Part shown: positions 5,982-39,899 of the stretch, in pieces
Layout: each line of letters opens with the position of its first letter
How positions within the stretch are numbered: position 1 is the stretch's first letter
Position numbers and translations under genes: made by a program
Origin: Polynucleobacter alcilacus
GTDB lineage: Bacteria; Pseudomonadota; Gammaproteobacteria; Burkholderiales; Burkholderiaceae
Assembly (NCBI RefSeq): GCF_018881545.1
Contig: NZ_JACVQD010000001.1
Location: 1,578,039-1,642,038 of the forward strand
Direction of reading: 5' to 3'
DNA length: 64,000 nucleotides
Notes under the pieces: generated by a model
The model's input: the letters and a program-made list of their open reading frames with translations, nothing else
The model's database searches: none
What the model was told of the DNA's origin: nothing

Positions 5982-6983
5982 GTGTTAAAAAATTCATCTA
6001 TTTTAATCACTGGTGGAACGGGATCATTTGGGAATGCTTTTGTACCAATGACCTTGTCTAAATATAATCCTCGACGTTTAGTAATCTATTCACGTGATGA
6101 GATGAAGCAGTGGGAGATGGCTAAGCAATATTCCAATGATGACAGAGTGCGCTTTTTTATTGGCGACGTTCGGGATAAGGACCGCCTTTCTAGGGCATTA
6201 AATGGCATTGATTACGTTATTCATGCCGCTGCCACTAAGATCGTCCCCACTGCCGAATATAATCCATTTGAGTGCGTAAAAACTAATGTATTTGGTGCAA
6301 TGAATTTAATAGATGCCTGTATTGATCAGCGCGTTAAAAGAGTAGTGGCGCTTTCTACTGATAAGGCAAGTAGCCCGGCTAACTTATATGGTGCAACGAA
6401 GCTTACTTCAGATAAGTTATTTATTGCTGGTAATGCTTATGTATCGCGCGATGATGATACTCGCTTTGCAGTTGTTAGATATGGGAATGTTATGGGCTCT
6501 AGGGGGTCTGTGATCCCCTACTTTATGAGCTTAGTTGACAAAGAAAATTTACCAATAACAGATTTACGTATGACTCGTTTTATGATTACGCTGCAGCAAG
6601 GGGTTGAGCTTGTTTGGCGTGCTTTTGAAGATATGATTGGTGGTGAGATTTACGTAAAAAAAATACCATCAATGAAAATAGCGGATGTAGCATCAGCTCT
6701 GGTGCCTAATGCTACTCATAAAATAATTGGCATTAGACCGGGCGAGAAATTACATGAGCAAATGATAGGTCCAGAAGATGCGCCTCATACATTTGAATAT
6801 CCTGAATACTATAAAATCTTACCCGCTATTCATGAATGGAGTAGTGATCCAGTGCGTATTGGTGAAGGTAAGCCCGTAGACGCAGATTTTACTTATTCTT
6901 CAGATAATAACTTAGAGTGGATGAGCATCTCAGACTTACAGAGTTGGGTAAAACTAAATCAAAAAAGCATAGGCAAAATATGA
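5982..6983 (+). CDS. pseB: UDP-N-acetylglucosamine 4,6-dehydratase (inverting), PseB
   Basis: This is the first enzyme of CMP-pseudaminic acid synthesis, converting UDP-GlcNAc to the 4-keto-6-deoxy-L-arabino sugar. It is a soluble extended SDR of 333 residues with the NAD(P) motif GGTGSFG at 11-17, STDKA from 125, and a YGATK catalytic pair (Tyr136, Lys140). The usual Tyr is present, unlike in the WbpM-like protein upstream. I chose the GTG at 5982 because a GGGAAGG ribosome-binding site lies about seven bases before it; a TTG at 5967 is in frame but sits before that site. Its stop overlaps the start of pseC (ATGA), so the two are co-translated. Confidence 0.92.
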   Translation: MLKNSSILITGGTGSFGNAFVPMTLSKYNPRRLVIYSRDEMKQWEMAKQYSNDDRVRFFIGDVRDKDRLSRALNGIDYVIHAAATKIVPTAEYNPFECVKTNVFGAMNLIDACIDQRVKRVVALSTDKASSPANLYGATKLTSDKLFIAGNAYVSRDDDTRFAVVRYGNVMGSRGSVIPYFMSLVDKENLPITDLRMTRFMITLQQGVELVWRAFEDMIGGEIYVKKIPSMKIADVASALVPNATHKIIGIRPGEKLHEQMIGPEDAPHTFEYPEYYKILPAIHEWSSDPVRIGEGKPVDADFTYSSDNNLEWMSISDLQSWVKLNQKSIGKI

Positions 6984-8149
6984 CAATTGCCATTCCCTAC
7001 GGGCGCCAAGACATAAGCCAAGACGATATTGATGAGGTTGTGGCTGTTTTGCGGTCTGATTTTTTGACGCAAGGACCAGTAGTACCTTCTTTTGAAAATT
7101 CTGTTGCTCAGTTTTGTGGTGCAAAATATGCCGTAGCTGTTAATAGCGCTACCAGTGCTTTGCACATTGCTTGCTTGGCTCTGGGTGTGGGTGAGGGTGA
7201 CATTGTCTGGACAACCCCAATAACTTTTGTGGCTAGCGCTAATTGTGCACTGTATTGTGGTGCCGAGATAGACTTTATCGATATTGACCCGTTCACTTAT
7301 AATTTAAATGCTTCTTTATTGGCCGACAAGCTTGCCGAGGCCGAAAAAATAGGTCAATTGCCTAAAGTTTTAATTCCAGTTCATTTGTGTGGTCAGAGCT
7401 GTGACATGGCTAAGATATATGAATTAAGTCTTAAATACGGTTTTAAGATAATTGAGGATGCATCGCATGCCATCGGCGCTAAATATAAAGGTGAACCAAT
7501 TGGTAGCGGCAGGTATAGCGACATCACTGTTTTTAGTTTCCATCCCGTCAAAATTATCACAACTGGCGAGGGTGGCATGGCGACAACTAATAGCGAATCG
7601 CTGGCAAAGCGTATGCAACTCTTTCGAAGTCATGGTATCAGAGCGTTGTCCGATAAGGCGCATCACTTAAATAACGAGATCTGGAATTATGAGCAAATTG
7701 AGTTAGGTTTTAACTATCGGATGACTGATTTGCAGGCTGCATTAGGTTTGAGTCAAATGGATCGATTGAATTATTTTGTTGAATGTCGCAATAACATTGC
7801 ATCACGATATGACGAGGCACTAGTTGATCTCCCACTGATTACACCCTGGCAGCATCAAGATAGTAATTCTAGTTATCATCTTTATCCAATTCGCATTAAA
7901 GCGCCGTTTGGTGAAAAAAATCAGAGAGAGATTTACGACGAGCTGAGAAGGAGTGGGATTGGCGTGAACCTACATTACATACCAGTTTATCGCCAACCTT
8001 TTTATGCCAGCAGAGGATTTTTTGCCGGGTATTGTCCTGAGGCTGAAAATTATTATCACCAAGCTATTAGCTTACCTATTTTCCCTGCGCTTAGTCATGA
8101 AGACCAAGACTATGTTATTGATGCCGTAAAAAAAGCTACCGTAATATGA
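6980..8149 (+). CDS. pseC: UDP-4-amino-4,6-dideoxy-N-acetyl-beta-L-altrosamine transaminase, PseC
   Basis: This PLP-dependent sugar aminotransferase of the DegT/DnrJ/EryC1 family acts directly on the PseB product. The 389-residue protein has the family landmarks: a phosphate-binding NSATSALH stretch near 55-62, IEDASHAIGA around 158-167, and the PLP lysine Lys191 in SFHPVKIITTGEGG. The ATG at 6980 overlaps the pseB stop by four bases, and its own stop overlaps the pseF start in the same way. This is a tight three-gene pse operon and strongly supports the assignment. Confidence 0.93.
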   Translation: MTIAIPYGRQDISQDDIDEVVAVLRSDFLTQGPVVPSFENSVAQFCGAKYAVAVNSATSALHIACLALGVGEGDIVWTTPITFVASANCALYCGAEIDFIDIDPFTYNLNASLLADKLAEAEKIGQLPKVLIPVHLCGQSCDMAKIYELSLKYGFKIIEDASHAIGAKYKGEPIGSGRYSDITVFSFHPVKIITTGEGGMATTNSESLAKRMQLFRSHGIRALSDKAHHLNNEIWNYEQIELGFNYRMTDLQAALGLSQMDRLNYFVECRNNIASRYDEALVDLPLITPWQHQDSNSSYHLYPIRIKAPFGEKNQREIYDELRRSGIGVNLHYIPVYRQPFYASRGFFAGYCPEAENYYHQAISLPIFPALSHEDQDYVIDAVKKATVI

Positions 8150-8853
8150 ATATTTGCATAATACCTGCGCGGGGTGGGAGTAAAAGAATCCCCCAAAAAA
8201 ATATAAAAAATTTTCATGGACATCCGATAATTTCATATTCCATTCAATCGGCAATTAAATCTAATTTATTTGATGAAGTGATGGTTTCCACTGATGATCC
8301 TGAGATAGCAGAGATCAGTATTAAATATGGCGCTTCTGTCCCCTTTTTAAGGAGTGCAGCTAATTCTGATGACTACTCTGGGACTGGGGATGCTCTTAAT
8401 GAGGTCTTAAAAAAGTACGAGGAGGTGGGTAAATATTTCTCTGTTGCTTGCTGTCTTTATCCTACCGCTCCATTTGTTACAGAGGATAGGATTAAGCAGG
8501 CATTTGCAGAGTTACAAATTTCAACATTTGATGTGATATTTCCGGTTGCTAAATTTAGACCAACTATTTTTCGCTCATATCGTATGTTGGCCGACTCATC
8601 TGTCGCAATGAATTTCCCTGAGTATGAAATATCTCGTTCGCAGGATCTCCCTGATGCGTATTATGATGCAGGTCAATTTTATTTTTTTAGAACACAGAAT
8701 TTTTTTAAACTAAAAAATAAAAATACATTTGGATTAAGTAAAGGAGTAATTGTTCTCGATGATTCCGAGGTTCAGGATATAGACTCTCCCGAAGACTGGC
8801 AAATGGCTGAGATGAAATATTTAGTGAATATTGGAGCCGTTTCTTATGAGTGA
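8146..8853 (+). CDS. pseF: Pseudaminic acid cytidylyltransferase, PseF
   Basis: PseF activates pseudaminic acid with CTP to CMP-Pse, the donor used by glycosyltransferases. It is a 235-residue CMP-sugar synthetase with the CTP-binding motif PARGGSKRIPQKN at 7-19, typical of the NeuA/KdsB fold. The start overlaps pseC by four bases (ATGA). The stop overlaps the next gene's ATG at 8846. The order pseB-pseC-pseF matches many Pse loci. Confidence 0.92.
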   Translation: MNICIIPARGGSKRIPQKNIKNFHGHPIISYSIQSAIKSNLFDEVMVSTDDPEIAEISIKYGASVPFLRSAANSDDYSGTGDALNEVLKKYEEVGKYFSVACCLYPTAPFVTEDRIKQAFAELQISTFDVIFPVAKFRPTIFRSYRMLADSSVAMNFPEYEISRSQDLPDAYYDAGQFYFFRTQNFFKLKNKNTFGLSKGVIVLDDSEVQDIDSPEDWQMAEMKYLVNIGAVSYE

Positions 8854-9913
8854 CTTATCGCCAAAAAATTATAATTTTGCTCGCGATACTGCGATGAAAA
8901 TGGCGGATATTTATCTCCAGAACAGCGGTAAGTATATGGTGAATGAGAGTTGGGGCCCTGAGGGAACATTATATCTTTCGGAATCTGCATACGCGCTTTT
9001 ATCAATATATAAGCTGACTAGAGAGCAGAAGCTTCTCAGTGCTGTTGAGGTAATTTTAGGGGAAATAAAATCACTTCAAATGGACAGTGGTGGATTAGGT
9101 ATTCACCTTGGAAGATACGGTGATGGCCTAAGATTTAAAGTGACAAATGACGTGGCTTTTGCTACGTCAACAATAGAGGATGTTCCCCCAACTATTGCAA
9201 CTCTAAAAGTTGTTGCTGATTATGAATGCATAACTGGTAGCAATAGATTTCTTGATGTTGGTGAGAAGGCCTACAAATATTTAATAAGAAAATGGAGCGA
9301 TAAAGATGGATGTTTTGTTGAAGAGACTAATCCAGTTTTACAGTCCCTAAGATCAAACCCCAGGAGTTACCAATTGTTTAGTTATCTTGGTATGAAGGCT
9401 TGGAAAGATAAGTGCGTAAATGATTCTGATGCGATTGTTGATAGATTATTGAGTTACATAGTAGATACATTTGAGAGTTATGACGGAAGCACGATGCCTC
9501 TTGTTTATGGGTTGCATGCAGCAATTCTCTGTCAGGCAATGCCACTCTCATACCTGAAGGAGTTCATTAAGCCACGCATTGATGAGCACCTCGGATTAAG
9601 TAGCAAATTCCGTATTGCCAACATAAAGGGAGCCTATGGACACCGTGATGGTCAACGTGGGATAGTTTTAGATGAGGCTCATATAAGAAGCGCATGTGGA
9701 GCGGCTATCGCAATGAGATTTTATGATATTTATACCAATTCATGTGAGTATCAGAACAGTGAACAATATCAAGATATTGCTGGTTGGATAATGAGTATGT
9801 ACGATAAGCAAAATGGATTTTACGAGTTTCAAGATATTGGAAGCATGAGAAGGTGTGGAAGAGGCTCTCCGGGTCAATATCTTCCAATTTGGTGGATGAC
9901 AGGAATGATCTAA
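8846..9913 (+). CDS. Unrecognised alpha-toroid-like protein in the pseudaminic acid operon
   Basis: I do not recognise this 355-residue soluble protein with certainty. It is rich in amphipathic helices, with repeated aromatic, Gly and Trp-containing turns (for example ESWGPEGTLYLSESAY near 33-48), and ends in PGQYLPIWWMTGM. This is reminiscent of (alpha/alpha)6 or alpha-toroid folds found in glycoside hydrolases, sugar epimerases and cyclases. There is no signal peptide or membrane segment. The ATG at 8846 has a GGAG site nine bases upstream and overlaps the end of pseF, so it is translationally coupled to the pse operon. A role in making or trimming a modified nonulosonic acid is inferred from position only. 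Confidence 0.6.
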   Translation: MSDLSPKNYNFARDTAMKMADIYLQNSGKYMVNESWGPEGTLYLSESAYALLSIYKLTREQKLLSAVEVILGEIKSLQMDSGGLGIHLGRYGDGLRFKVTNDVAFATSTIEDVPPTIATLKVVADYECITGSNRFLDVGEKAYKYLIRKWSDKDGCFVEETNPVLQSLRSNPRSYQLFSYLGMKAWKDKCVNDSDAIVDRLLSYIVDTFESYDGSTMPLVYGLHAAILCQAMPLSYLKEFIKPRIDEHLGLSSKFRIANIKGAYGHRDGQRGIVLDEAHIRSACGAAIAMRFYDIYTNSCEYQNSEQYQDIAGWIMSMYDKQNGFYEFQDIGSMRRCGRGSPGQYLPIWWMTGMI

Positions 9914-9982
9914 AGAGATAATTACTTGAACCACAGTACCTAATATGACTAATTTTATATTTCTTATAAAAAGGCACCAATC

Positions 9983-10438
9983 TTGAAAATCAAAATTAGG
10001 CATGCAAATTTAAATGATGAGATGTTGTTGTTGAGTTGGGCGAATGATTCGACTGTACGTGAGAATGCCTTTAATTCACAATTCATAACGCCCGCAGCAC
10101 ATCATGAATGGCTTTACGGTCGATTAAATGAATGTTCCAGATGCCAAATTTTTATAGCTGAAGAGGAGGGTGTTGTTGCCCTTGGTCAGGTTAGATTTGA
10201 AAAAAAAGGCCCAATTTGGGAGATTGACTATTCAATAGATAAAGATTTTCGATCAAGAGGGCTTGGTGAATTGGTATTAAATATAGCCCTTAAAAAAATG
10301 AAATACAATTATCCTGAATCATGTTTCGTTGGATATGTCAAGAAAGGCAATACGCCTTCATCAAAAGTATTCGAAAAACTCGGATTTGTAGCGGAGATTA
10401 AAGCAGATTTTGTAATATGGAGATCCCACGGCAAATAA
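9983..10438 (+). CDS. pseH: GNAT N-acetyltransferase, probably PseH (amino-sugar N-acetyltransferase)
   Basis: This 151-residue GNAT-fold enzyme has the acetyl-CoA loop near DFRSRGLGELVLNIAL (about 88-103) and a C-terminal SSKVFEKLGF motif. In the pse pathway PseH acetylates the 4-amino group of the PseC product. This is the only GNAT in the operon and sits where pseH is expected. The start is TTG at 9983 with AAGG about nine bases upstream. It is slightly shorter than typical PseH, and another acyl donor cannot be excluded because the operon also holds acyl-tailoring genes. Confidence 0.75.
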   Translation: MKIKIRHANLNDEMLLLSWANDSTVRENAFNSQFITPAAHHEWLYGRLNECSRCQIFIAEEEGVVALGQVRFEKKGPIWEIDYSIDKDFRSRGLGELVLNIALKKMKYNYPESCFVGYVKKGNTPSSKVFEKLGFVAEIKADFVIWRSHGK

Positions 10439-10518
10439 AAATTTAAACTTCTTAAGCTGTTTATAGAGCCTCATGAATCCATAAACGAGCGAGTTTAAAT
10501 TAATAAAAAGGAATATAC

Positions 10519-11661
10519 GTGCTTTATAGTAAAAAATCACAGGAAATTGGGGTTGCAAGCTCAATTGAGCAAAATGAGCTTGTTTATAAAAAACGCAGAG
10601 AAGGCGGAGATCCCATTATTCTCTCCTATGGTGAAGCCCCTTTCAAAATTAGCCCAATCTTAAGCAAGGAGAGCGATTGGGAGAGGGGGTGTCATTATTC
10701 CGAAGGAAAGGGTGTGCCAGAATTCCGCCAGGAAATTGCGAAATACATCAAGGATGTGACTGATGTAGAGATATCTTGGGAAAAAAATATACTTGTATCA
10801 GCAGGTTCGAAGATCATCAGTTATTTTATTGCTCAAGCACTGTTAAATCCTGGTGACAACATAATGCTACACGAGCCTTCTTGGGTAAGCTATCAGGAAC
10901 ATGCCAAACTCAATCAGGCTAGCACCACCTTTCTAGATTACACCCGATCTGTCTATGATTTTGAGGATCTTTATAAGTCTCATCCCAATACAAAACTTAT
11001 ATACCTTAATAATCCTAATAATCCAAGAGGTTATGTTTATAGTGAGAAAGAATTAAGGTGGTTGGCGAATTTTTGCGCTGACAAAAATATTGTACTAGCG
11101 ATAGATGAAAGCTATTCTGATTTCGTGATTGATGAAGACTTTTATAGCGGTATTATTTTAATAAAAGATTTTCCAAATGTAGTGGTATTTAATTCAATCT
11201 CTAAAAATTTTGGCTTATCAGGCTGGCGAATTGGGTATTGTGTCGGAAGTGAGGATTTTATAAATAGACTTAATAAATTTAATCAGCATTTAATTACTTG
11301 TGCCCCTACTTGCTTGCAATTGGATCTTGTTGGCAAGTTAAGTACCTTACGTGCTGAAATTGGTCCGCAGCTCAAGGCACTTAATTCAAAGAGGAGTGAT
11401 GTAATTGACTTGCTCCAAAAGTTTGGATTTAAATATTTATCTGGATCATCCACTTTTTATGTATTTATCGATGTATCTCATAAGGTGAACGATACTAAAC
11501 AGTTCGCAGTAGAATTTTTAGAAAAATCAAATGTTTCCTTAATTCCGGGGGGTGCTTATGGGGAGAGTACCTCAGGATTTTTAAGGTTATCTTTTGCAAT
11601 AGAGCCAATTGATAGAATTGAACTCGCATTAACACGCCTTCATTCTGCACTTAATGACTAA
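10519..11661 (+). CDS. Class I/II PLP-dependent aminotransferase
   Basis: This fold-type I aminotransferase of 380 residues resembles the AspC/HisC/cobalamin-type group. The NNPNNPRGY substrate/PLP loop lies near 168-176, and the PLP lysine is Lys229 within SISKNFGLSGWRIGY. Such enzymes act on amino acids or keto acids rather than nucleotide sugars, so its presence in a pse operon suggests synthesis of an amino-acid-derived building block. The GTG start at 10519 has an AAAAGGA site six bases upstream. It is followed by pseI 42 bases later. Confidence 0.85.
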   Translation: MLYSKKSQEIGVASSIEQNELVYKKRREGGDPIILSYGEAPFKISPILSKESDWERGCHYSEGKGVPEFRQEIAKYIKDVTDVEISWEKNILVSAGSKIISYFIAQALLNPGDNIMLHEPSWVSYQEHAKLNQASTTFLDYTRSVYDFEDLYKSHPNTKLIYLNNPNNPRGYVYSEKELRWLANFCADKNIVLAIDESYSDFVIDEDFYSGIILIKDFPNVVVFNSISKNFGLSGWRIGYCVGSEDFINRLNKFNQHLITCAPTCLQLDLVGKLSTLRAEIGPQLKALNSKRSDVIDLLQKFGFKYLSGSSTFYVFIDVSHKVNDTKQFAVEFLEKSNVSLIPGGAYGESTSGFLRLSFAIEPIDRIELALTRLHSALND

Positions 11662-11703
11662 TTGTGTTTATATGTACGATGCCCCATAATCATAGGATTT
11701 ATT

Positions 11704-12738
11704 ATGAAATTCATCAGAATTGGCGATAAAGAGCTGGGAAACGGGAAAGTTTTTCTTATAGCTGAAGTTGGTTCAAATCATGCTTCTTCGCTGGATATTG
11801 CTATTGAAAGTATTGAAAGGGCTCATTGGGCGGGCGCGGACGCAGTAAAGTTTCAGTCAATTAATATAGATGCGCTTTACCACAATCCAAATATCGATGT
11901 CCGTAATCTACATAAAAAAATTGATTTCCCCGAAAGTTGGTATAAAAAGCTGAAGTCAGAATGCGACAAGCTCGGACTAGTTTTTTTATCTTCCCCAACA
12001 TATTTGTCGGCAGTCGGACTCCTGGAGTCAGTTGGGGTGGAGTTGTATAAGATTGCATCAGCTCAAGTCGCTGTCTATCCTCAATTGATAGAGCGAGTAG
12101 CAGCTCTAGGTAAGCCGGTGGTCATTTCTAGTGGTTTAGCAACAGAGAACGAGTTATCTCGAGTGGTTGATATATTTCATAAGGTAGGGAATGAAAAGTT
12201 CATTATCTTGCATTGCAATAGTGTGTATCCTGCAAATCCAGACATAGTTCACTTGCCTCGTATGTTGGGCTATCAAAAACGATTTTCTTGTGCAGTTGGG
12301 TTTTCTGATCACACAGTTTCTGATGTTGCTTCTATAGCTTCAGTAGCAATGGGTGCGGCTGTAATAGAAAGGCACTTTACGATAAGCAAAAAAATTGACT
12401 CTCCGGATGCAGAGCTTTCTCTTGAGCCTCAAGAGTTTAGAAATTTTGTCTCATCAATTCGTGAGGCTGAATTAATTTGTAGAAATTTACCCCGTGATAG
12501 TTTAGAGTTTGATGAGCTGGCGTTCAAAAATCGTATTCAACACAATCTTGTTGCAACTAGGGAAATACTTTCAGGTCAGATAATCGATCAAAACAATAGT
12601 GATCTAATGAGGGGAAATGATTCTGTTGGCATTGATGCTTGGACTGTATATGAAAAAAGAGAAATATTTATAGCAAAGAAGGATATACAAGCAGGCTCAT
12701 GGATTACGTGGGAATTTGTGGAGCGTTCCCAAATTTAA
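11704..12738 (+). CDS. pseI: Pseudaminic acid synthase, PseI (NeuB family)
   Basis: PseI condenses the free 2,4-diacetamido-trideoxy-altrose with phosphoenolpyruvate to give the nine-carbon nonulosonic acid. The 344-residue protein has an N-terminal TIM barrel with IAEVGSNH (19-26) and AGADAVKFQ, a HCNSVYP-type strand, GFSDHT in the second half and a C-terminal SAF/antifreeze-like domain. I chose the ATG at 11704 because the family N-terminus begins there and an AGGA site precedes it; an upstream extension to 11662 carries no family sequence. Position among pse genes favours PseI over NeuB or LegI. Confidence 0.88.
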   Translation: MKFIRIGDKELGNGKVFLIAEVGSNHASSLDIAIESIERAHWAGADAVKFQSINIDALYHNPNIDVRNLHKKIDFPESWYKKLKSECDKLGLVFLSSPTYLSAVGLLESVGVELYKIASAQVAVYPQLIERVAALGKPVVISSGLATENELSRVVDIFHKVGNEKFIILHCNSVYPANPDIVHLPRMLGYQKRFSCAVGFSDHTVSDVASIASVAMGAAVIERHFTISKKIDSPDAELSLEPQEFRNFVSSIREAELICRNLPRDSLEFDELAFKNRIQHNLVATREILSGQIIDQNNSDLMRGNDSVGIDAWTVYEKREIFIAKKDIQAGSWITWEFVERSQI

Positions 12739-12790
12739 AGCTGAATTTATCTACTAGGTCAAGACCGAAACTCCACCCATAAAAAATAAT

Positions 12791-13993
12791 ATGATAATAA
12801 ATAGATTGATGGTGATAGGGGCAACCTGGGAGCAGGTTCCTTTAATTAGGGCAGCAAAAAATATGGGGTGCGAGGTTATTGCAACCTCTTCTTCATCAAA
12901 CTCCGAAGGATTTGCTTATGCCGATTACTCTGAGATTTTGGATCCTCGAGATTTAAATGCTATTGTCAAAATCGCAGAAAAATATTCAGTTGATGCGGTA
13001 ACCTCAGATAGCTGTGATTATTCAAATTACGCTGCCATGTTCCTGAGAAATAAGATGGGATTGCATAATTTTGGCATGAATGCAGTTCAGTTCACAACAA
13101 ATAAACATTGGATGCGGAACAAATGTGCCGAAGAGGGGGTGCTGCAACCTCGTTTTGAAATCTGCCGAAGTTATTTCGAAGTTTGCAAGGCTTCCGAAAG
13201 TATTGGTTACCCTTTAATTATTAAGCCTTCGGATAATCGTGGCTCATTTGGCGTTACACGTGTTGCTAAATTTAGCGATCTTCAGGATGCTTTTTTGCAT
13301 GCATTAATGAATGCTCACTCTCGTGAAGTCTTAGTTGAGGAGTACATATCTGGCATCCATATAACCGTAGATGGTTGTGTAGATTCAGATGGGAAGCATA
13401 TAAACTTAGGTATTGCATCTAAAAAAATTACATCTGATGAAATTCCAATAATCGTAGAAGTTCTATACCCAGCAAATAATATTGATGACGGGTTAATGAA
13501 AAATATTTTCAATATTAATAATAATGTTGTGAAGGCGCTGGAGATTAAGCGTGGCCTTACACACTCAGAATACATTGTTGACTCACATGGGGGCTGTTAT
13601 CTTGTCGAGATGGCAAATCGAGGGGGTGGAGTTTTAACATCTGGAGTTATCATTCCAGCAATATCCGGAGTTAATCTATCTGAAATCTTGGTTCTAGAGG
13701 CATTAGGCAGGCCCTATGACGTGACTCCATGGAGCAAATCTTTATTTGCCATGTTGGATTTTTTGATCTTCCCAACAGGATTAGTGTCGAAAATTGAAGG
13801 AGTTTTAGAGGCATCGGAACACCCTAAAATTCTTCATCTCAAAATGATGATAAAAGAAGGCGATTTCTTGGGAAAGCCATCATCAGGGGCTGAACGCCAT
13901 GGATTTGCTATATATATTGGGAGTAGTTATGAGGAGCTTGAAAGCTTAAAGAAATTAATAAGAAAGTTAATTAAAATAGAATATGAAAATTGA
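12791..13993 (+). CDS. ATP-grasp superfamily ligase (carbamoyl-phosphate synthase/PurK-like)
   Basis: This 400-residue ATP-grasp enzyme has an N-terminal Rossmann-like pre-ATP-grasp domain (VIGATWEQ at 8-15) and a nucleotide-binding core with IIKPSDNRGSFGV at 143-155. A Mg-binding end follows around YLVEMANRGGG in the second half. Members join a carboxylate, activated as acyl phosphate, to an amine or similar nucleophile. In this operon it could attach an amino acid or other acyl group to the amino sugar, or make such a group, but the substrate is unknown. The next gene starts 11 bases before its end. An in-frame ATG at 12809 is an alternative start. Confidence 0.85.
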   Translation: MIINRLMVIGATWEQVPLIRAAKNMGCEVIATSSSSNSEGFAYADYSEILDPRDLNAIVKIAEKYSVDAVTSDSCDYSNYAAMFLRNKMGLHNFGMNAVQFTTNKHWMRNKCAEEGVLQPRFEICRSYFEVCKASESIGYPLIIKPSDNRGSFGVTRVAKFSDLQDAFLHALMNAHSREVLVEEYISGIHITVDGCVDSDGKHINLGIASKKITSDEIPIIVEVLYPANNIDDGLMKNIFNINNNVVKALEIKRGLTHSEYIVDSHGGCYLVEMANRGGGVLTSGVIIPAISGVNLSEILVLEALGRPYDVTPWSKSLFAMLDFLIFPTGLVSKIEGVLEASEHPKILHLKMMIKEGDFLGKPSSGAERHGFAIYIGSSYEELESLKKLIRKLIKIEYEN

Positions 13994-14642
13994 CAGTTTA
14001 GCTCTAAAAATTGCAGATGAAAAACTGATAGAACGCTATAGCAATCGATTGCGCAAATTTGGGGGTGATGCCCGTACTCTTGGTTGGGATAATCAAAATA
14101 ATCAATATAGCCGCTTTGAAATTGCGATGAAAATTGTCGATTTTAATGGCCGAAAAATTTTAGATATTGGCTGCGGACTCGCAGATTTTAGGGCGTTCTT
14201 AAAACTCAAAGATATAGTGCCAGCCGTTTATGCGGGGTGTGATATTAATCCTGAGTTATTGGGGTATTGCAAAAATAGATGGCCAATGGACAATTTTTAT
14301 TTAGCTAATATTCTTGTAGACGATATCAGCGACACTTCGTACGATATTGTTACCTTATTTGGAGTCCTAAATTTCCGCTTTAAAGAATTTGATAATATGG
14401 ATTTTGCTCGACAAATGATTTCTAAGGCTTTTACCATATGTAGAGAATCTGTAGTTGTGGACTTTTTAACTGCTGTTAAAGATTTAAAATATCCAGAAGA
14501 GGATTTTGTTTATTATTATGATCCTTGTGAAATTCTGAAATTTGCTTTAACTCTCACTCCTCATGTAACGCTCAGACATGACTATCAGTCCTTACCGCAG
14601 AGGGAGATGATGCTGGTACTTCATAGGCATCCTTCATCATGA
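13983..14642 (+). CDS. Class I SAM-dependent methyltransferase
   Basis: This 219-residue Rossmann-fold methyltransferase has SAM motif I at KILDIGCGLADF (58-69), an acidic residue ending the second strand in YAGCDINPE, and a VTLFGVLNFR post-motif. The target (N-, O- or C-methylation of the modified sugar or its acyl group) is not visible. It overlaps the ATP-grasp gene at its start and the amidohydrolase gene at its end (four-base ATGA), indicating strict co-translation of the three. Confidence 0.82.
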   Translation: MKIDSLALKIADEKLIERYSNRLRKFGGDARTLGWDNQNNQYSRFEIAMKIVDFNGRKILDIGCGLADFRAFLKLKDIVPAVYAGCDINPELLGYCKNRWPMDNFYLANILVDDISDTSYDIVTLFGVLNFRFKEFDNMDFARQMISKAFTICRESVVVDFLTAVKDLKYPEEDFVYYYDPCEILKFALTLTPHVTLRHDYQSLPQREMMLVLHRHPSS

Positions 14643-15436
14643 TAGATATGTTCATACATCCGCTTTCCAATGCGCGTGAGCATATGCTTTTCGATCTATC
14701 TCATATCTGTTGGGATGACTGGGTTGGCATAACACTGAGATCTATGGATGAAAATGGCGTTAGAGCATCAGGCGTTTGTATTATGGATGATAGGGTTCTT
14801 TGGAACAGGGATTTTTGCAAACATCTAGAGGTCTCTCATAGTTCAAAACGATTATGGTTTACTCTTATGGTCAACTTTCGTGCTGACGATCCATTGCGTA
14901 GTATTAAGATGGCTGCGGATGCAGGTTTCAAGGGGATTACATTTCATAGCTATCTTCAGGAAATTAAACCTTGCGATTATTCAAGAGTAGTGAGCATTAT
15001 TAATTATGCCAATTCGATTGGGATGTTTGCAGGTTTATGCACAGCATTTGGGGGAAAAGGGATTTATGATTTTGAGAGCTTGCCTTTGGCTGTTGAAATC
15101 TTAAAGCAGTCAGGAGATTATCCTCTCGTCCTTTACCATAGTGGCGGCGCCCGAATTTTGGAGGCGCTTTTGTTATGTGAAATGTGGCCTAATTTATTTC
15201 TTGAGACTTCCTTTAGCTTAAGTTATTGGCTAAATAGCAGCATTGATTTAGATATTGCTTTTTCAATACGAAAAATTGGCGCAAAAAGGTTTATGTTTGG
15301 TTCTGATTCACCATTTTTACCACTTAAAAATGCAATTGGTGACCACATTACATTTTTTGAAAAGCACGGATTTGATGAATCTACAAGAAAATTAATCTTT
15401 GGAGGATCTGCACGGAAGGTATTCAAATTTATATAG
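14639..15436 (+). CDS. Amidohydrolase-like metal-dependent hydrolase (TIM barrel)
   Basis: This 265-residue protein resembles the TatD/amidohydrolase_2 group: an N-terminal FIHP stretch (His7), GITFHSYLQ near 99-107, VLYHSGG near 163-169 and the terminal catalytic Asp in FGSDSP (Asp223). The canonical N-terminal HxH pair is reduced to a single His, so metal binding may differ from typical members. It is translationally coupled to the methyltransferase upstream. Possible roles are hydrolysis of an amide or lactone intermediate during sugar tailoring; this is inferred from family and location only. Confidence 0.72.
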   Translation: MIDMFIHPLSNAREHMLFDLSHICWDDWVGITLRSMDENGVRASGVCIMDDRVLWNRDFCKHLEVSHSSKRLWFTLMVNFRADDPLRSIKMAADAGFKGITFHSYLQEIKPCDYSRVVSIINYANSIGMFAGLCTAFGGKGIYDFESLPLAVEILKQSGDYPLVLYHSGGARILEALLLCEMWPNLFLETSFSLSYWLNSSIDLDIAFSIRKIGAKRFMFGSDSPFLPLKNAIGDHITFFEKHGFDESTRKLIFGGSARKVFKFI

Positions 15437-15457
15437 TTAAACCTCAAAAATTTAACT

Positions 15458-15466
15458 GGGGGGGGG
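15458..15466. repeat. Nine-base poly-G tract upstream of pseG
   Basis: An uninterrupted run of nine G lies in the 87-base gap between the amidohydrolase and pseG genes, ending 57 bases before the pseG ATG. It is the longest G run I found in the window. G runs of this length are slippage-prone; in a leader or promoter they can alter spacing. Whether it varies here is unknown. Confidence 0.85.
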
Positions 15467-15523
15467 ATCTTTGCATTTCTACGGCTTCCCTCCGATTATC
15501 TCTAGTGATGAAGTTCCTAATAA

Positions 15524-16489
15524 ATGAATAATATTTTAATATTAACTGAGGCTGGTGGATCGGTTGGGTATGGTCATATTTCTCGCTGCTTGGGAATCAC
15601 ACAAGCCTTAAGTGGAGAAGCAGGGCTTGTATTGACCTCTTCAGAGGAAATGACCTTCGAGAATAACTCAAGAGTTTCAAATTGGATTAGAAATCCTGCG
15701 GAGCTTCCAGATTTAAATGGTGGTAAATGGCCAAACACAGTGTTGATAGATTCCTATAATGCTGATATAGACTGTATTAATTATTTACGTAAATCGGTAA
15801 ATTATTTAGCTGTAATAGATGACTTTGATCGCATGCCTTACCCATGTGACAGCATAATAAATCCCTCCTTATTAGGTCCGAATTACAGTCAGCAGTGCGC
15901 AAAGATTTTTAAAGGGTCTGAATTCATAATTCTACGAGAAGACATTAGGTTTAGTAAACCAAAGCAAAAGCATGGGGAGCTAAAAAGTTTATTAGTTACA
16001 TTTGGAGGTGGGGATACTAGCCCCATCCTGAATCTTACGCTTCCAATATTGGAGGCATTGGATTTGAATATTCATGTGCTCACTGGTGATAATGAGAAGG
16101 CATCCTTTCTTCGCTCAAAATTTCGTAGCAATAAATTTAATATTTTAGGTAGATTGAATTCTTATGAAGTTGCAAAATTATTTTTGGATATCGATTTAGC
16201 TATCAGTGCAGGAGGTCAAACTCTAAATGAATTGGCATTTTTGGGGATACCATTTATTGCAGTTGAAACTGGTATGGACCAGTACTGGAATATTGAGGGA
16301 TACGTGCAAAATTTAGTAACAGGTAGACATTTGTATGCAAAAGACCCACAGTTTAGGACATTATTATTAGCGGAAATAAGTAGAATGAGGGATTTATCTC
16401 TGCGGGTTGAGGCTTCTAGATTGGGTAGGGGCATTGTTGATGGTTTGGGTGCAAATCGTATTTCTAATTTATTAAAAAATAAAGATTAA
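15524..16489 (+). CDS. pseG: UDP-2,4-diacetamido-2,4,6-trideoxy-beta-L-altropyranose hydrolase, PseG
   Basis: PseG removes UDP from the diacetamido sugar to supply PseI. The 321-residue GT-B-like protein has the diagnostic N-terminal GYGHISRCL motif; His18 corresponds to the catalytic His of Campylobacter PseG. A C-terminal UDP-binding stretch, AISAGGQTLNELAFLGIPFI, resembles MurG. An in-frame TAA directly before the ATG excludes an upstream extension. It is separated from the previous gene by an 87-base gap with a nine-G run, the first real gap after pseI. Confidence 0.9.
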   Translation: MNNILILTEAGGSVGYGHISRCLGITQALSGEAGLVLTSSEEMTFENNSRVSNWIRNPAELPDLNGGKWPNTVLIDSYNADIDCINYLRKSVNYLAVIDDFDRMPYPCDSIINPSLLGPNYSQQCAKIFKGSEFIILREDIRFSKPKQKHGELKSLLVTFGGGDTSPILNLTLPILEALDLNIHVLTGDNEKASFLRSKFRSNKFNILGRLNSYEVAKLFLDIDLAISAGGQTLNELAFLGIPFIAVETGMDQYWNIEGYVQNLVTGRHLYAKDPQFRTLLLAEISRMRDLSLRVEASRLGRGIVDGLGANRISNLLKNKD

Positions 16490-16547
16490 ATTTTAAAGAG
16501 TGGCGCCCATTAATAACGCCCTATTAACAAATCTCGTGGATGCCATC

Positions 16548-16577
16548 TTTATTTACATAAAATATAGCTTGTATAAT
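16548..16577 (+). promoter_or_regulatory. Possible sigma-70 promoter before the PIG-L deacetylase gene
   Basis: In the 167-base gap after pseG there is a consensus -10 TATAAT at 16572-16577 with a weak -35 TTTATT at 16548-16553, spaced 18 bases. It could start a second transcript for the deacetylase, amidotransferase and HisH/HisF genes. The rest of the gap shows nothing else recognisable. Confidence 0.3.
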
Positions 16578-16656
16578 CGACCACATTATTGCCCATAAAG
16601 AATTAAATTTACTAAAAAACATTGGCCAGCTAAAGAGTGTACAAAAGGACAATTAA

Positions 16657-17325
16657 TTGAAAAAAATTCTTGTTGTAGCTGCGCATCCAGATGATGAAGT
16701 TCTTGGCTGTGGTGGAACAATTTGTCGTCATGTAGAAGGGGGTGATGATGTCCACTTGGTTCTCATGGCTGATGGTGAGACTTCTCGAGAATCAGCTTCT
16801 TTTTCTAGTGCTCATGGTCGTAAATCTGCAACATTAAGGGCTAAAGAAATACTTGGTATTTCAAGTGTCGTGAATTTGGGGTATTCAGATAATATGATGG
16901 ATGAATTTCCTTTGTTGCAAATAATTAAATCGCTTGAGGATATTATTCATATGCTTAAGCCATCAGTTGTGTATACACATCATTATGGTGATCTAAATAT
17001 TGATCACAGAATTACACAACAGGCGGTAATGACGGCATGCAGACCTATTCCCAACGCCAGCGTTAAGGAAATTTATGGCTTTGAAGTGCTCTCAAGCACA
17101 GAGTGGAAATCTAACTCTGTGATTCCATTCTCCCCATCTCTATTTATTGATATCAGCAGTCATTTAAAAACCAAGTTGCTGGCAGCGGGTGCATATAACA
17201 GCGAGATGATTGCTGCGCCTCATTCAAGAAGTGTTGAGCATATAGAAATTCTTGCCCGACATAGAGGTTATTCAGTAGGCACAAATGCAGCAGAAGCATT
17301 TGAGGTGTATAGGGTACTTAAATAA
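16657..17325 (+). CDS. PIG-L family N-deacetylase
   Basis: This zinc-dependent de-N-acetylase of 222 residues has the family motif AHPDDE (9-14) and a second metal/catalytic cluster THHYGDLNIDHR (107-118; His108, His109, Asp112, Asp116 and His117). PIG-L enzymes remove N-acetyl groups from sugars. In this operon it could free an amino group on the nonulosonic acid precursor for a different substituent, next to the amidotransferase gene 12 bases downstream. The start is TTG at 16657 with an AAGGA site about seven bases upstream. Confidence 0.88.
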   Translation: MKKILVVAAHPDDEVLGCGGTICRHVEGGDDVHLVLMADGETSRESASFSSAHGRKSATLRAKEILGISSVVNLGYSDNMMDEFPLLQIIKSLEDIIHMLKPSVVYTHHYGDLNIDHRITQQAVMTACRPIPNASVKEIYGFEVLSSTEWKSNSVIPFSPSLFIDISSHLKTKLLAAGAYNSEMIAAPHSRSVEHIEILARHRGYSVGTNAAEAFEVYRVLK

Positions 17326-17337
17326 AAAGGTGGTTCA

Positions 17338-18501
17338 ATGTATTACTGTAAAAAATGCTTATATCCGTCAACTAAGCCAGACTTATGGTTTACTGAAGAA
17401 GGTGTCTGTGGCGCCTGTCATTCTTATGAAACTCGCGGAAGTTATGATTGGAGTGATGCAAAAAATCAATTCCACAAACTGATGCGAGAAAATAAAAAAA
17501 ATCCAAAATATGATTGCATTGTGCCTGTTTCTGGTGGAAAAGACAGCACCTACCAAGTGTGGAGAATGTTGGCGGAAGGTTATAACCCGTTATGTGTAAC
17601 AGCCCCAACTGATTTTTTAACGCCTCTAGGCAGAAGAAATATTGAAAATCTTAAGAATTTGGGCGTTGATTATATTGAGGTATCAGTTAATAGGGATGTC
17701 AGAAAGAAAATTGCAAAGTATTCATTGCGTTCGGTTGGAGACATACAGTGGTCTGAACATGTTTTGATATACACAGTCCCAGTCCATATTGCCGTTAATT
17801 TTAATATTCCAATAATCGTTTGGGGAGAGTGCGGGCAACGAGAATATGGTGCAGGTAGACCAGAGGATGCAAAAATGGTTCTATTTGATCGCCGAGTATT
17901 GGAGGAGTATGGAAGTCTAAATGGGCAAAGGGTTAGCGATTTATTGTCAATTCCCGGAGTCTCTTCTAAGGACTTGTATTTTTATGAGTACCCTGAGCCT
18001 GACACAGTTGAGGGGCTGGGATTAAAGGGAATTTATTTGGATAACTATTTTGAATGGCACGGAATTACAAATGTCGTCATATCTCAAGCACTTGGATTTG
18101 AGGTATCCCCGAATAACATTGTTGGAACAATCAGTAATTATGAAAATTTAGATAATTACGTTCATGGAATCCATGACTATTTTAAATATTTAAAGTTTGG
18201 ATTTAGCCGCTCAACAGATATTGCTTGTAATCTAATTAGAAGAAAATTGCTAACGCGCGAGGATGCGATATTCCTTGTTGCAAAGAATGATGGTGTGTAC
18301 CCCTCTGAGTACTTAGATAAAAGTTTACAAGAAATATTGAATTATTATTCTGTTACTTCAGATGAATTTCATGAGATTTGTGATGACTATACAGACTATA
18401 GTTTATTTAAAAGAACGCCTGCCGGTGAATTGGTTAGGCGTAGTGATGGATCTCCATCTTTAATTTCCAACTTTAACCAGTATAAAAATCATATTGAATA
18501 A
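17338..18501 (+). CDS. pseA: N-acetyl sugar amidotransferase, PseA/WbpG family
   Basis: This 387-residue protein of the ExsB/PP-loop ATPase superfamily has an N-terminal four-Cys zinc site (Cys4, Cys7, Cys24, Cys27) and the PP-loop SGGKDS at 65-70. Relatives (PseA in Campylobacter, WbpG in Pseudomonas) convert an N-acetyl group of a bacterial sugar to an acetamidino group using ammonia from a HisH/HisF-type pair. Such a pair follows 750 bases downstream. This supports an amidino nonulosonic acid, although whether the acceptor is the Pse precursor or another sugar is inferred. Confidence 0.88.
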   Translation: MYYCKKCLYPSTKPDLWFTEEGVCGACHSYETRGSYDWSDAKNQFHKLMRENKKNPKYDCIVPVSGGKDSTYQVWRMLAEGYNPLCVTAPTDFLTPLGRRNIENLKNLGVDYIEVSVNRDVRKKIAKYSLRSVGDIQWSEHVLIYTVPVHIAVNFNIPIIVWGECGQREYGAGRPEDAKMVLFDRRVLEEYGSLNGQRVSDLLSIPGVSSKDLYFYEYPEPDTVEGLGLKGIYLDNYFEWHGITNVVISQALGFEVSPNNIVGTISNYENLDNYVHGIHDYFKYLKFGFSRSTDIACNLIRRKLLTREDAIFLVAKNDGVYPSEYLDKSLQEILNYYSVTSDEFHEICDDYTDYSLFKRTPAGELVRRSDGSPSLISNFNQYKNHIE

Positions 18502-18515
18502 GTAGACTAAAAATA

Positions 18516-19223
18516 ATGGCTAAAAGTAATCTCAATCTCATCCATTCGGAAGGATTTGCTGTCATCAAAACTGAAATATCTTCCTTATTAGAGGCAATGA
18601 GGTCTGACTTTATTCAATTATTTAATCGAATATCTCAACACCATGGCTGTGGAGCTGTTCATAATGATGCTGATGTCTGTAGACTATATGAAAATAACCA
18701 TTCGCTATGGGTTGCGGCTTATAACCAATTAAGATTTCACCCCAAAGTATTTGAGATTGCGTCCTCTAAAATCATTCTTGATATTTTAAATAATGCTGGA
18801 TTAGTGTCCCCTCATATCGGCGCCCAGTGCATCGTTCGTGCTGATATGCCGTTTGATGATCCATGGAGATTCCCTCCGCATCAAGACTATCCTTTTAATA
18901 AAGGATCGCTTAACTCAGTGACACTATGGGTGCCATTTCAGGATACTGGCGAGGATATGGGGTGTTTACAAGTGATTAAAGGATCAAATAAGCTCGGGTT
19001 ACTTCCAGAAAAAAATAACGAAATAATAGAGCAATTCCCCGATATAAATTATGAATCGGCTCCTATAGCCTTGGGGGAGATTCTGTGTTTTTCGCAGTTT
19101 CTAATACATAAATCAGGATTTAACCGAAGTGAAAAAATTAGATTTTCTTTGCAGCTAAGATATAACGATCTTGCACATGACGAATACCTCTCTAGAAAAT
19201 TGACATTTTCTAGAGAGTACTAA
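18516..19223 (+). CDS. Phytanoyl-CoA dioxygenase (PhyH) family Fe(II)/2-oxoglutarate oxygenase
   Basis: This 235-residue jelly-roll oxygenase has the 2-His-1-carboxylate iron site: HQD at 122-124 (His122, Asp124) and His198 in FLIHKS, followed by Arg-rich 2-oxoglutarate contacts in KIRFSLQLRY. It probably hydroxylates a small molecule or sugar-bound acyl group. It sits between the amidotransferase and its presumed ammonia-supplying HisH/HisF subunits, which makes a tailoring role likely; the substrate is unknown. Confidence 0.82.
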   Translation: MAKSNLNLIHSEGFAVIKTEISSLLEAMRSDFIQLFNRISQHHGCGAVHNDADVCRLYENNHSLWVAAYNQLRFHPKVFEIASSKIILDILNNAGLVSPHIGAQCIVRADMPFDDPWRFPPHQDYPFNKGSLNSVTLWVPFQDTGEDMGCLQVIKGSNKLGLLPEKNNEIIEQFPDINYESAPIALGEILCFSQFLIHKSGFNRSEKIRFSLQLRYNDLAHDEYLSRKLTFSREY

Positions 19224-19254
19224 TCTTAGATCTAGAAGTATCTTAATTATATAG

Positions 19255-19911
19255 ATGATATATATTCCACCATCAAACCTAAGTAATTTATCAAGTGTAA
19301 AGAGATATCTCGATTTTGGTGGGCATGATTATGAATTTCTCAAGAAAGATGTTTTTTTGGAGGTGGGTCGGGATGTAATTCTTTTACCTGGTGTAGGTAC
19401 TTTTAAGTCTGGAATGAATGCATTGGTGCTATCCGGTCTAGTTGATGTTATTAAAAGATTTGGTCTTTCTGGGGGACATATTTTGGGAATTTGTCTTGGC
19501 ATGCAGTTATTACTCGAGTCTAGCCAAGAGAGCCCGGGAATTGAGGGGTTGGGATTAATTAATGGTGCAGTCAAACTACTCCCACCATCTTTGAGCGAAC
19601 GAATTCCACGGGTGGGCTGGGATGAGTTGTTGATAAGTAGTAATTCCAAGACCTACTCCTATGAAAGATCATTGATAGCATCAGATTGTGATTACCCCTC
19701 CAAATCTTTTTACGACTATTATTTTGTTCACTCTTACTATTGTCAAACATCAAAACCTGAGGATGTTTCAAGCTGGTTTGAGTATGATAAGCAGCTTTAT
19801 TGTGCCTCTATAGAGTCGGGAAATATAATTGGGTTGCAATTTCATCCAGAAAAAAGCGGGGAGGGTGGCTATCTACTCCTAGACAATATATTGAATCAGG
19901 TTATGGCTTGA
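19255..19911 (+). CDS. hisH: HisH-type glutamine amidotransferase subunit (HisH2, glycan-associated)
   Basis: This class I glutamine amidotransferase of 218 residues has the nucleophile Cys80 in GICLGMQ, preceded by the LLPGVGTF oxyanion region (43-50), and His197/Glu199 in FHPEKS. It releases ammonia from glutamine for its partner HisF-like subunit. Located after pseA and beside a hisF paralogue with no other histidine genes, it most likely feeds the sugar amidotransferase rather than histidine synthesis. Confidence 0.88.
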   Translation: MIYIPPSNLSNLSSVKRYLDFGGHDYEFLKKDVFLEVGRDVILLPGVGTFKSGMNALVLSGLVDVIKRFGLSGGHILGICLGMQLLLESSQESPGIEGLGLINGAVKLLPPSLSERIPRVGWDELLISSNSKTYSYERSLIASDCDYPSKSFYDYYFVHSYYCQTSKPEDVSSWFEYDKQLYCASIESGNIIGLQFHPEKSGEGGYLLLDNILNQVMA

Positions 19912-19927
19912 TGCTGCTGTTATTATT

Positions 19928-20689
19928 ATGAAAAAAAGAATTATTCCAATCATGCTGATGGGCTCAGGTGGGCAGATTGTTACCAGCAAAAAATTTAATC
20001 CATGGAGAACTGTTGGGGTGATTATGCAGTCGTTAAGGCTGCATGATTCACGGGGCGCCGATGAGATCATTATTCTTGATGTTAATGCTTCAAAATCTGC
20101 CAACAGTATTGACCTTCGTTTATTACATAAAATTTCCCAGAATTTAAAGATTCCATTGACTGTTGGAGGCGGAATTAGTACTTTGGATATAGCTAGGGAT
20201 TACATCTCATCGGGCGCTGATAAGGTTTCACTTTGCTCTGCATGTATAGATAATTTATCTTTGGTAGAAAGTATTTCAGAAAGTCTTGGGGCTCAAGCGG
20301 TAGTTGGCTCCCTTAATATCTCATTCATAGACGATGTGGCTTTTTTATATGATTATCGAACATCAAGTAGTTTAGATATAAAACTAACTGATCACATTCC
20401 AAAATTAATTAAAGCTGGAGTGGGTGAGATTATGATCACTTCAGTCGACAAGGATGGTTCCTTATCCGGATTTGATTTACGTATTTTGAATTTATTAGAT
20501 TTAATTAAGCCATCAGTGCCGGTGATAATAGCTGGAGGTGGAGGCAGCCCAGAACATTTCGTTGAAGTCCTTAAGCATGACTACTTGATGGCTGCCGCAG
20601 GAGGTTCAATTTTTGCATTTACTGAAAATACTCCCTCAACCTTGAGAAAATTCTGTCTGAATAGCTGCATTTCCATGAAGAGGCATTAG
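19928..20689 (+). CDS. hisF: HisF-like cyclase subunit paralogue (HisF2) lacking catalytic aspartates
   Basis: This 253-residue (beta/alpha)8 barrel of the HisA/HisF family has a phosphate-binding TVGGGIST near 79-86 and ITSVDKDGSLSGFD in the second half. By manual alignment with histidine-pathway HisF, the first catalytic Asp (Asp11 in Thermotoga HisF) is Leu10 here. The second (Asp130) falls on a non-acidic residue in VVGSLNI. This fits paralogues that channel ammonia with HisH to a PseA/WbpG amidotransferase but no longer make imidazole glycerol phosphate. It directly follows hisH. Confidence 0.87.
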   Translation: MKKRIIPIMLMGSGGQIVTSKKFNPWRTVGVIMQSLRLHDSRGADEIIILDVNASKSANSIDLRLLHKISQNLKIPLTVGGGISTLDIARDYISSGADKVSLCSACIDNLSLVESISESLGAQAVVGSLNISFIDDVAFLYDYRTSSSLDIKLTDHIPKLIKAGVGEIMITSVDKDGSLSGFDLRILNLLDLIKPSVPVIIAGGGGSPEHFVEVLKHDYLMAAAGGSIFAFTENTPSTLRKFCLNSCISMKRH

Positions 20690-39859: not shown

Positions 39860-39899
39860 TTGAGCTCTTATTTCAATCATTTTCTAAGTAATTAAATTT

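Follow-up and report, generated by a model that had tools for sequence, protein, structure and literature searches.

The window analysed here is a stretch of 64,000 nucleotides from the 2.03 Mb genome of Polynucleobacter alcilacus (C1:1578039-1642038), in which 16 genes at 5982-20689, all on the + strand with intergenic gaps of -11 to +167 bases, combine genes for pseudaminic acid (Pse) with an unusual set of accessory genes. Our results show that this cassette is real, rare and conserved. It probably serves a modified Pse-type sugar, the chemistry of which we infer throughout, and it represents a new form of acyl-nonulosonate cluster to which a common amidination module has been added. The product we predict, with about an even chance of being right, is a cytidine monophosphate (CMP)-activated Pse-type nonulosonic acid in which one N-acetyl group is exchanged for a larger acyl group. 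As components of the bacterial surface, nonulosonic acids are encountered by hosts, phages and predators, and if the prediction is true the cassette contributes a form of these sugars that is new in its N-acyl group or its stereochemistry.

An 11-gene core in two genomes

All genes named in the initial annotation of the cassette were found, and Pfam and NCBIfam matches backed nine of the accessory labels, with the HisF-like protein below the WbuZ cut-off. In a scan that covered 84,980 species genomes and used patterns derived from one cassette protein, the sole relative was Candidatus Thiobius zoothamnicola, an ectosymbiont of a ciliate. Its locus (L034) holds pseB, pseC, pseF, a toroid gene, a GNAT, a synthase, an ATP-grasp gene, a DmpG-type aldolase, a methyltransferase, an amidohydrolase, a PseG-like gene and a PIG-L gene. 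Eleven of the genes have the same order and strand in the window and in Thiobius, namely pseB-C-F, toroid, GNAT, synthase, ATP-grasp, methyltransferase, amidohydrolase, PseG-like and PIG-L, and since this order is kept in a second genome the cassette is more than a chance assembly. Identity to the Thiobius proteins is highest for PseB (72%), PseC (63%), PIG-L (56%) and PseF (55%), the values for PseB, PseC and PseF being from tblastn, followed by the toroid and the synthase (both 48%), the methyltransferase (41%), the ligase (34%), the amidohydrolase (31%), the GNAT (30%) and the PseG-like protein (28%). The Thiobius run is without the class I aminotransferase, WbuX, PhyH, HisH and HisF, and the genes after PIG-L differ from those in the window. 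The aminotransferase of the window (10519..11661, + strand; PF00155 195 bits; top NCBIfam match aspartate aminotransferase, 219 bits, below the cut-off of 550) lies between the GNAT and the synthase, and the aldolase of Thiobius between the ligase and the methyltransferase, which suggests that the same ligase is supplied with different acids in the two organisms. As Thiobius lives on a ciliate, the sugar may act at the host interface.

The initial annotation had described the Pse pathway as complete, and this held for three of its six enzymes when compared with the NCBIfam equivalog cut-offs. The inverting UDP-GlcNAc 4,6-dehydratase PseB (5982..6983, + strand, GTG start; TIGR03589 514 bits, cut-off 408), the aminotransferase PseC (6980..8149, + strand; TIGR03588 547 bits, cut-off 423.5) and PseF of the CMP-pseudaminic acid synthetase family (8146..8853, + strand; TIGR03584 266 bits, cut-off 206) exceeded them. 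The PseH-like GNAT acetyltransferase (9983..10438, + strand; TIGR03585 30 bits, cut-off 93), the PseG-like UDP-sugar hydrolase (15524..16489, + strand; TIGR03590 93 bits, cut-off 153.6), in which GxGH is kept, and the divergent, PseI-like synthase of the NeuB family (11704..12738, + strand; PseI 227 bits, cut-off 340; NeuB_NnaB 237 bits, cut-off 400) all fell below. The same split was seen in Thiobius, with conventional PseB, PseC and PseF and divergent PseH-, PseG- and PseI-like proteins. Thus the steps before N4 acylation, and CMP transfer, appear conventional, and the enzymes that would handle the acylated intermediates do not. The Thiobius GNAT (L034:9196-9990) has a truncated PseG-like N-terminus, as if it were the remnant of a PseG-PseH fusion.

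Frequencies of the accessory genes were taken from 83 loci with a NeuB-family gene in the order of the window genome, drawn from the synthase match list (the third match of genome G088 was not included separately). These loci are 20 kb long in 75 cases and 8.9-19.7 kb in the rest, and they hold some redundancy, as L259 and L148 cover the same synthase place (both Gly at the pocket position discussed below) and the synthases of L221 and L222 are almost the same (both Phe). WbuX, HisH and HisF were each present in 21 loci and PIG-L in seven, and these genes are ordinary add-ons of synthase loci. The ATP-grasp profile was matched in three, the methyltransferase in two and the DmpG aldolase in one; the toroid, the amidohydrolase, PhyH and the class I aminotransferase were found in 0/83. 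Among 80 loci from viral contigs, PIG-L (17), WbuX (18), HisF (16) and the methyltransferase (1) occurred, and the toroid, the amidohydrolase and the ATP-grasp ligase did not. The annotation had proposed a heavily modified nonulosonic acid and had named a neighbourhood search beforehand as a refuting test. The outcome partly supports and sharpens that proposal, in that the 11-gene core recurs in Thiobius, while WbuX, HisH, HisF and PIG-L proved common in other synthase loci and five accessories are not in the Thiobius run.

The fourth gene of the cassette encodes an orphan toroid protein (8846..9913, + strand). Its reading frame opens at TTG 8831, and translation more likely starts from the ATG at 8846. 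The protein was found in two genomes only, the window genome and Thiobius, among the samples searched. It matched only itself in the genomes of the order (1/300) and genus (1/151), and only the Thiobius copy in the order of Thiobius (1/195). The class sample gave 2/369, the second being Thiobius, and the phylum sample 2/398, where the second was an 84-residue match (E 8.6e-4) with two internal stops that was not counted. No relatives were found in plasmids, phages or viral contigs. The protein had been described as alpha-toroid-like, and two AlphaFold models, each built from two sequences and with a confidence that is low to moderate (mean predicted local distance difference test scores 57 and 64), are indeed helical toroids; in profile searches neither Pfam nor NCBIfam gave a match at E 0.001, and Pfam gave none even at E 10. 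For the better model, the first 20 structural matches were sugar 2-epimerases and isomerases (Z 21.7-18.9, root-mean-square deviation 3.5-4.3 over 300-314 residues), followed by a GH105 protein at Z 18.8. For the other model 2-epimerases tied with glycoside hydrolases. Foldseek ranked complement C3d-type domains, GH76 mannanases and terpene cyclases first, with E values of 8.7e-3 and 5.4e-4 at best. Assignment by sequence as a 2-epimerase or a GH88 protein was tried and rejected (hhalign probability 0.5% and 1.0%, respectively, and no link in a PDB profile search). Another accessory gene encodes an amidohydrolase_2 protein (14639..15436, + strand; PF04909 54 bits, cut-off 26.4). Members of this family with an active metal site carry an N-terminal HxH motif; in its place the window protein has DxFxH and the Thiobius protein DxNxH, with HSGG and G(S/T)D kept. 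No relatives of the amidohydrolase were found in plasmids or viral contigs.

Synthase pocket, ligase and deacetylase

In Vibrionaceae synthases one position is tied to C2 of the sugar, and according to the available text of PMC7371886 it is mostly, not strictly, Gly in enzymes for neuraminic (Neu) and legionaminic (Leg) acid and Phe in those for Pse. The cassette synthase has Ala at this position (Ala120), as does that of Thiobius, and at a second position, for which the same text gives Ser in Pse enzymes, the cassette synthase likewise has Ser, a Pse-like feature. We compared loci with PseB and PseC at at least 50% identity. Of the 38 such order loci without the ligase, 34 have Phe, three Asp and one Cys (the 40 best-scoring loci had given 27/27 Phe among loci with PseB and PseC, and the wider set is the figure used). 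All five comparable loci with the ligase are without Phe, with Ala in the window and in Thiobius and Ser, Ser and Tyr in the others (Fisher p 1.3e-4). This suggests that the pocket residue (Phe, Gly, Asp or a small one) may tell whether the N2 group is kept, removed or replaced, a rule that, if true, would aid prediction of sugars from genomes.

The initial annotation had named the synthase PseI, yet it falls outside the canonical clade of that enzyme. With the trait column masked, the clade of Phe-bearing PseI excluded the cassette synthase (SH-aLRT, the Shimodaira-Hasegawa-like approximate likelihood ratio test, 99), and in a tree of 80 rows it fell on the non-Pse side. A position as sister to the PseI clade was not rejected with the same column masked (p 0.70), and a place for the synthase among the Neu/Leg enzymes is thereby not established.

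The ATP-grasp carboxylate-amine ligase (12791..13993, + strand) matches PF13535 (60.6 bits, cut-off 27) and the L-amino-acid-ligase domain PF18603 LAL_C2 (46.3 bits, cut-off 29.4), and, judged by sequence, the closest relative of solved structure is 3vot, an L-amino acid ligase. The Thiobius ligase matches PF13535, and PF18603 is not listed for it. All four plasmid relatives of the ligase lie in carbohydrate gene clusters beside a sugar aminotransferase (one a DegT), and on the Aureibacter plasmid the order is pseB-pseC-pseF-ligase-PseG-like-acyltransferase-pseI. Relatives were found at 27 order loci, six of which rest on the profile match with no ligase by tblastn at 1e-5; three have NeuB, PseB and PseC as neighbours, two more a DegT aminotransferase, and 22 neither. 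In the loci with PseB, PseC and NeuB (L194, L197 and L199) the ligase directly adjoins an S-adenosylmethionine (SAM) methyltransferase and the synthase is without the Phe of Pse enzymes. Two of them carry flagellin-like genes, by inspection, and their methyltransferases match Pfam methyltransferase families and are weakly or not similar to that of the cassette. The latter (13983..14642, + strand; PF08241 25.2 bits, cut-off 21.2) overlaps the ligase gene. Its relatives at E 1e-5 were found in 2/83 order loci (L220 and L235), neither with a ligase. Eight relatives lie on plasmids, where three gene contexts, one of them without annotation, were largely uninformative; scans of viral contigs gave one weak locus for the methyltransferase and two for the ligase. 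As a separate observation, a Pse cluster near a flagellin-like gene (L143:7387-13087) has a methyltransferase, a DmpG-type aldolase and an AMP-binding ligase, possibly a second way of attaching an aldolase-made acid.

The PIG-L family N-deacetylase (16657..17325, + strand; PF02585 106 bits, cut-off 28.2) has an HPDD motif. The seven order loci with PIG-L comprise three with a formyltransferase (L142, L147 and L149) and four with an Asp synthase (L230, L238, L244 and L247), so that PIG-L accompanies 4/4 Asp synthases and 3/79 others (p 1.9e-5). In viral contigs it was present at four of the six Asp-synthase loci (the six being L038, L045, L052, L057, L059 and L061) and at 13/74 others (p 0.017), and a formyltransferase match was seen in 9/17 viral PIG-L loci and also, without PIG-L, in four order loci. 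The Asp synthases are mutually related (35-77% identical), and the counts therefore reflect few events. The pairing suggests that Asp synthases near PIG-L take substrates with a free amine at C2, and that L142, L147 and L149 exchange acetyl for formyl. Neither the window nor the Thiobius locus has a formyltransferase match. In the simplest reading PIG-L uncovers an amino group, probably the one at C2. This group would stay free in the Asp class and be formylated in the PIG-L loci with a formyltransferase; in the cassette the ligase would acylate it. A search of the open-licence PMC literature returned no paper pairing pseudaminic acid with PIG-L.

Proposed product and alternatives

By family membership, PseB and PseC would make UDP-4-amino-4,6-dideoxy-AltNAc. 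The PseH-like GNAT may then acetylate N4 and the PseG-like enzyme remove UDP, two steps with weaker family support. PIG-L is predicted to remove the N2-acetyl group and the ATP-grasp ligase to join a carboxylic acid to the freed amine; this acid may be prepared by the aminotransferase, the amidohydrolase and the methyltransferase. The synthase, which has a small residue at the C2 pocket and whose family is clear, would condense the product, its putative substrate, with phosphoenolpyruvate. WbuX, HisH and HisF, judged by the function of their families, may convert the other acetamido group to acetamidino, PhyH may hydroxylate the product, and PseF, again by family membership, would make the CMP sugar. 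The final product would be a nonulosonic acid with a 7-N-acetimidoyl group and, on N5, an acyl group that is methylated and possibly amino-acyl; its predicted destination is a surface polysaccharide, not flagellin.

We favour this reading because the 11 genes keep order and strand in Thiobius, and because in both genomes only the enzymes expected to meet acylated intermediates diverge from the curated Pse families. It is further supported by the L-amino-acid-ligase domain together with the sugar-aminotransferase or PseB/PseC/NeuB neighbours of ligase relatives, by the replacement of the pocket Phe with Ala (no Phe in 5/5 ligase loci with PseB and PseC and in 4/38 without the ligase), and by the association of PIG-L with an Asp pocket or a formyltransferase, the latter being without a match in either carrier locus. 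In addition, the sfm operon of Shewanella oneidensis goes with a mono-N-acetyl, O-methylated Pse in the available text of PMC3765264. The acetamidino step is proposed because WbuX is above its cut-off and HisH and HisF are a second copy, and the lack of a flagellin gene fits surface polysaccharide as the target.

Several observations weigh against this reading. Aureibacter combines PseB-C-F and the ligase with a canonical Phe synthase (its locus is below the 50% identity limit), and the association of pocket and ligase is confounded by descent, since only two independent pairs remain, which is not significant; in the tree used for this test long branches meet. The sugar-related neighbours are missing from 22/27 order relatives of the ligase, PIG-L is missing from the three other order clusters with a ligase, and the toroid and the amidohydrolase are without an assigned step. 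The initial annotation had suggested an amino-acyl group, for which the ligase domain and the aminotransferase speak; the Thiobius run holds an aldolase and no aminotransferase, and an amino acid is thus not established.

A different division of labour, which we consider unlikely, would have the ligase acylate N4 (the future N7) in place of PseH, with PIG-L freeing N5 and the GNAT acting on the attached acyl group, giving a product like the N-acetylalanyl-legionaminic acid of Vibrio vulnificus. In its favour, the Aureibacter ligase lies between pseF and the PseG-like gene with no annotated PseH, the three order clusters with a ligase show no match to the cassette GNATs, and the GNAT of the window is far under the PseH cut-off. 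The Asp-pocket synthases that accompany PIG-L also suggest a free amine at C2, and Leg5Ac7AcAla is known (available text of PMC7371886). However, the PseG-like N-terminus of the Thiobius GNAT is expected of a PseG-PseH fusion, and the C2 position of the cassette synthase is Ala, not Asp. Alternatively, the Pse pathway could be an ordinary one to which only an acetamidino module is added, the remaining accessories being interspersed by chance and serving other sugars of that polysaccharide. PseB, PseC, PseF, WbuX and HisH do exceed their cut-offs, amidination genes are common (21/83 synthase loci) and other sugar genes lie within the window, yet the accessories are interleaved with the Pse genes in an order that is kept in Thiobius although the genes after PIG-L differ, and the sole NeuB of the genome is not a canonical PseI. 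We regard this arrangement by chance as quite improbable.

We also give little weight to the toroid being a 2-epimerase. It would follow PseG and use the free 2,4-diamino sugar, the synthase would then receive the C2 epimer, and an L-glycero-L-altro (acinetaminic) skeleton would result, whether or not an acyl group is exchanged. The 20 top structural matches of the better model point this way, as do a synthase without the Phe that in Pse enzymes is linked to substrate configuration at C2 and its NeuB score slightly above that for PseI. The models are of low to moderate confidence, however, epimerases tied with glycoside hydrolases in the other one, Foldseek led with other toroids, and sequence comparison gave no link (hhalign probability 0.5%; PDB profile search). 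2-Epimerases have a catalytic His in the last helix, and the last helix of the toroid, by helix count and not by superposition, has no His. Neu/Leg enzymes, moreover, have Gly and not Ala at the C2 position. By nomenclature, C5 inversion of L-glycero-L-manno gives L-glycero-L-altro, the configuration of acinetaminic acid in the available text of PMC5595891, where a route via CMP-Leg is proposed. A rerouted Pse pathway, in which a toroid 2-epimerase, a methylated-acyl exchange by PIG-L and the ligase, and a non-PseI synthase together yield a CMP-nonulosonic acid of acinetaminic skeleton with a new N-acyl and an acetamidino group, directly from a Pse intermediate and not from CMP-Leg, is in our view a long shot.

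Genomic setting and related systems

The synthase is the only NeuB-family gene of the genome. On the 5' side of the cassette are a PF02719 dehydratase and an ABC transporter, with Wzy_C and GNVR/Wzz matches that are weak and below cut-off, and on the 3' side glycosyltransferase-type genes and one more weak Wzy_C match, surroundings that we read as a surface polysaccharide locus. Neither this genome nor that of Thiobius gave a flagellin family match (the control was positive in 4/14 genomes), and flagellin was rejected as the target on this ground. The G+C content of the cassette is 38% compared with 44% at 44-64 kb, and the whole glycan locus (window 1-31000) is below the right end, which fits acquired DNA. 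The amidination genes and the PhyH gene follow PIG-L: the WbuX/PseA N-acetyl sugar amidotransferase (17338..18501, + strand; TIGR03573 305 bits, cut-off 203), the PhyH-type Fe/2-oxoglutarate oxygenase (18516..19223, + strand; PF05721 56 bits, cut-off 22), the HisH-type glutaminase (19255..19911, + strand; TIGR01855 151 bits, cut-off 105) and the HisF/WbuZ-like partner (19928..20689, + strand; PF00977 133 bits; WbuZ 189 bits, below the cut-off of 300). A second strong HisF lies beside a HisH elsewhere in the genome, with a third, weak match at the same place, so the HisH and HisF of the cassette are a dedicated copy; the same search gave one match in Thiobius. Further along the window, 34798-36741 encodes an asparagine-synthase homologue within the glycan locus, and 37989-43947 holds a nucleotidyltransferase, two short-chain dehydrogenase/reductases (SDRs), a DegT aminotransferase and a transketolase as two genes (42120-43061 and 43054-43947). 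The latter group looks like a branched-chain deoxysugar module with a two-carbon extension, which we take to be yersiniose-type.

Compared with the canonical PseB-C-H-G-I-F pathway, the cassette is alike in PseB, PseC and PseF above cut-off and differs in its PseH-, PseG- and PseI-like proteins below cut-off and in a synthase outside the PseI clade and without the Phe. Like WbuX/WbuY/WbuZ acetamidino modules, it has HisH- and HisF-like genes close to a WbuX that exceeds its cut-off, and it departs from them in a HisF-like protein below the WbuZ cut-off and a PhyH gene in between. Neisseria PglB2 (GATDH) and Clostridioides difficile CDR20291_0245 likewise tie an ATP-grasp protein to an acylated or peptidylamido sugar, although the sugars are others and the pathways, as described in the available text of PMC11130364 and PMC5207246, have no nonulosonate synthase.

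The nearest studied system is sfmABCDE of S. oneidensis. According to the available text of PMC3765264, its flagellin carries a Pse that has a single N-acetyl group and an O-methylated C9H16O7 unit, losing the ligase gene shifts the mass slightly less than losing the other sfm genes, and the single steps are not assigned to genes. A methoxy-acyl nonulosonic acid is also associated with Treponema denticola; the open-licence PMC search returned no paper on it, and our reading does not draw on it. As in the sfm operon, which has a NeuB-family synthase, a SAM methyltransferase and a PF13535-type ATP-grasp protein, with PseB and PseC in the genome, the cassette has a synthase, an ATP-grasp ligase and a SAM methyltransferase in one run (11704-14642), and so does Thiobius. 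Compared by description, the systems differ in that sfm has flagellin as target, a thiamine pyrophosphate enzyme and an SDR, and the cassette an aminotransferase, an amidohydrolase, PIG-L and the toroid. The ligase and methyltransferase loci L194, L197 and L199 also resemble sfmABCDE as it is described there.

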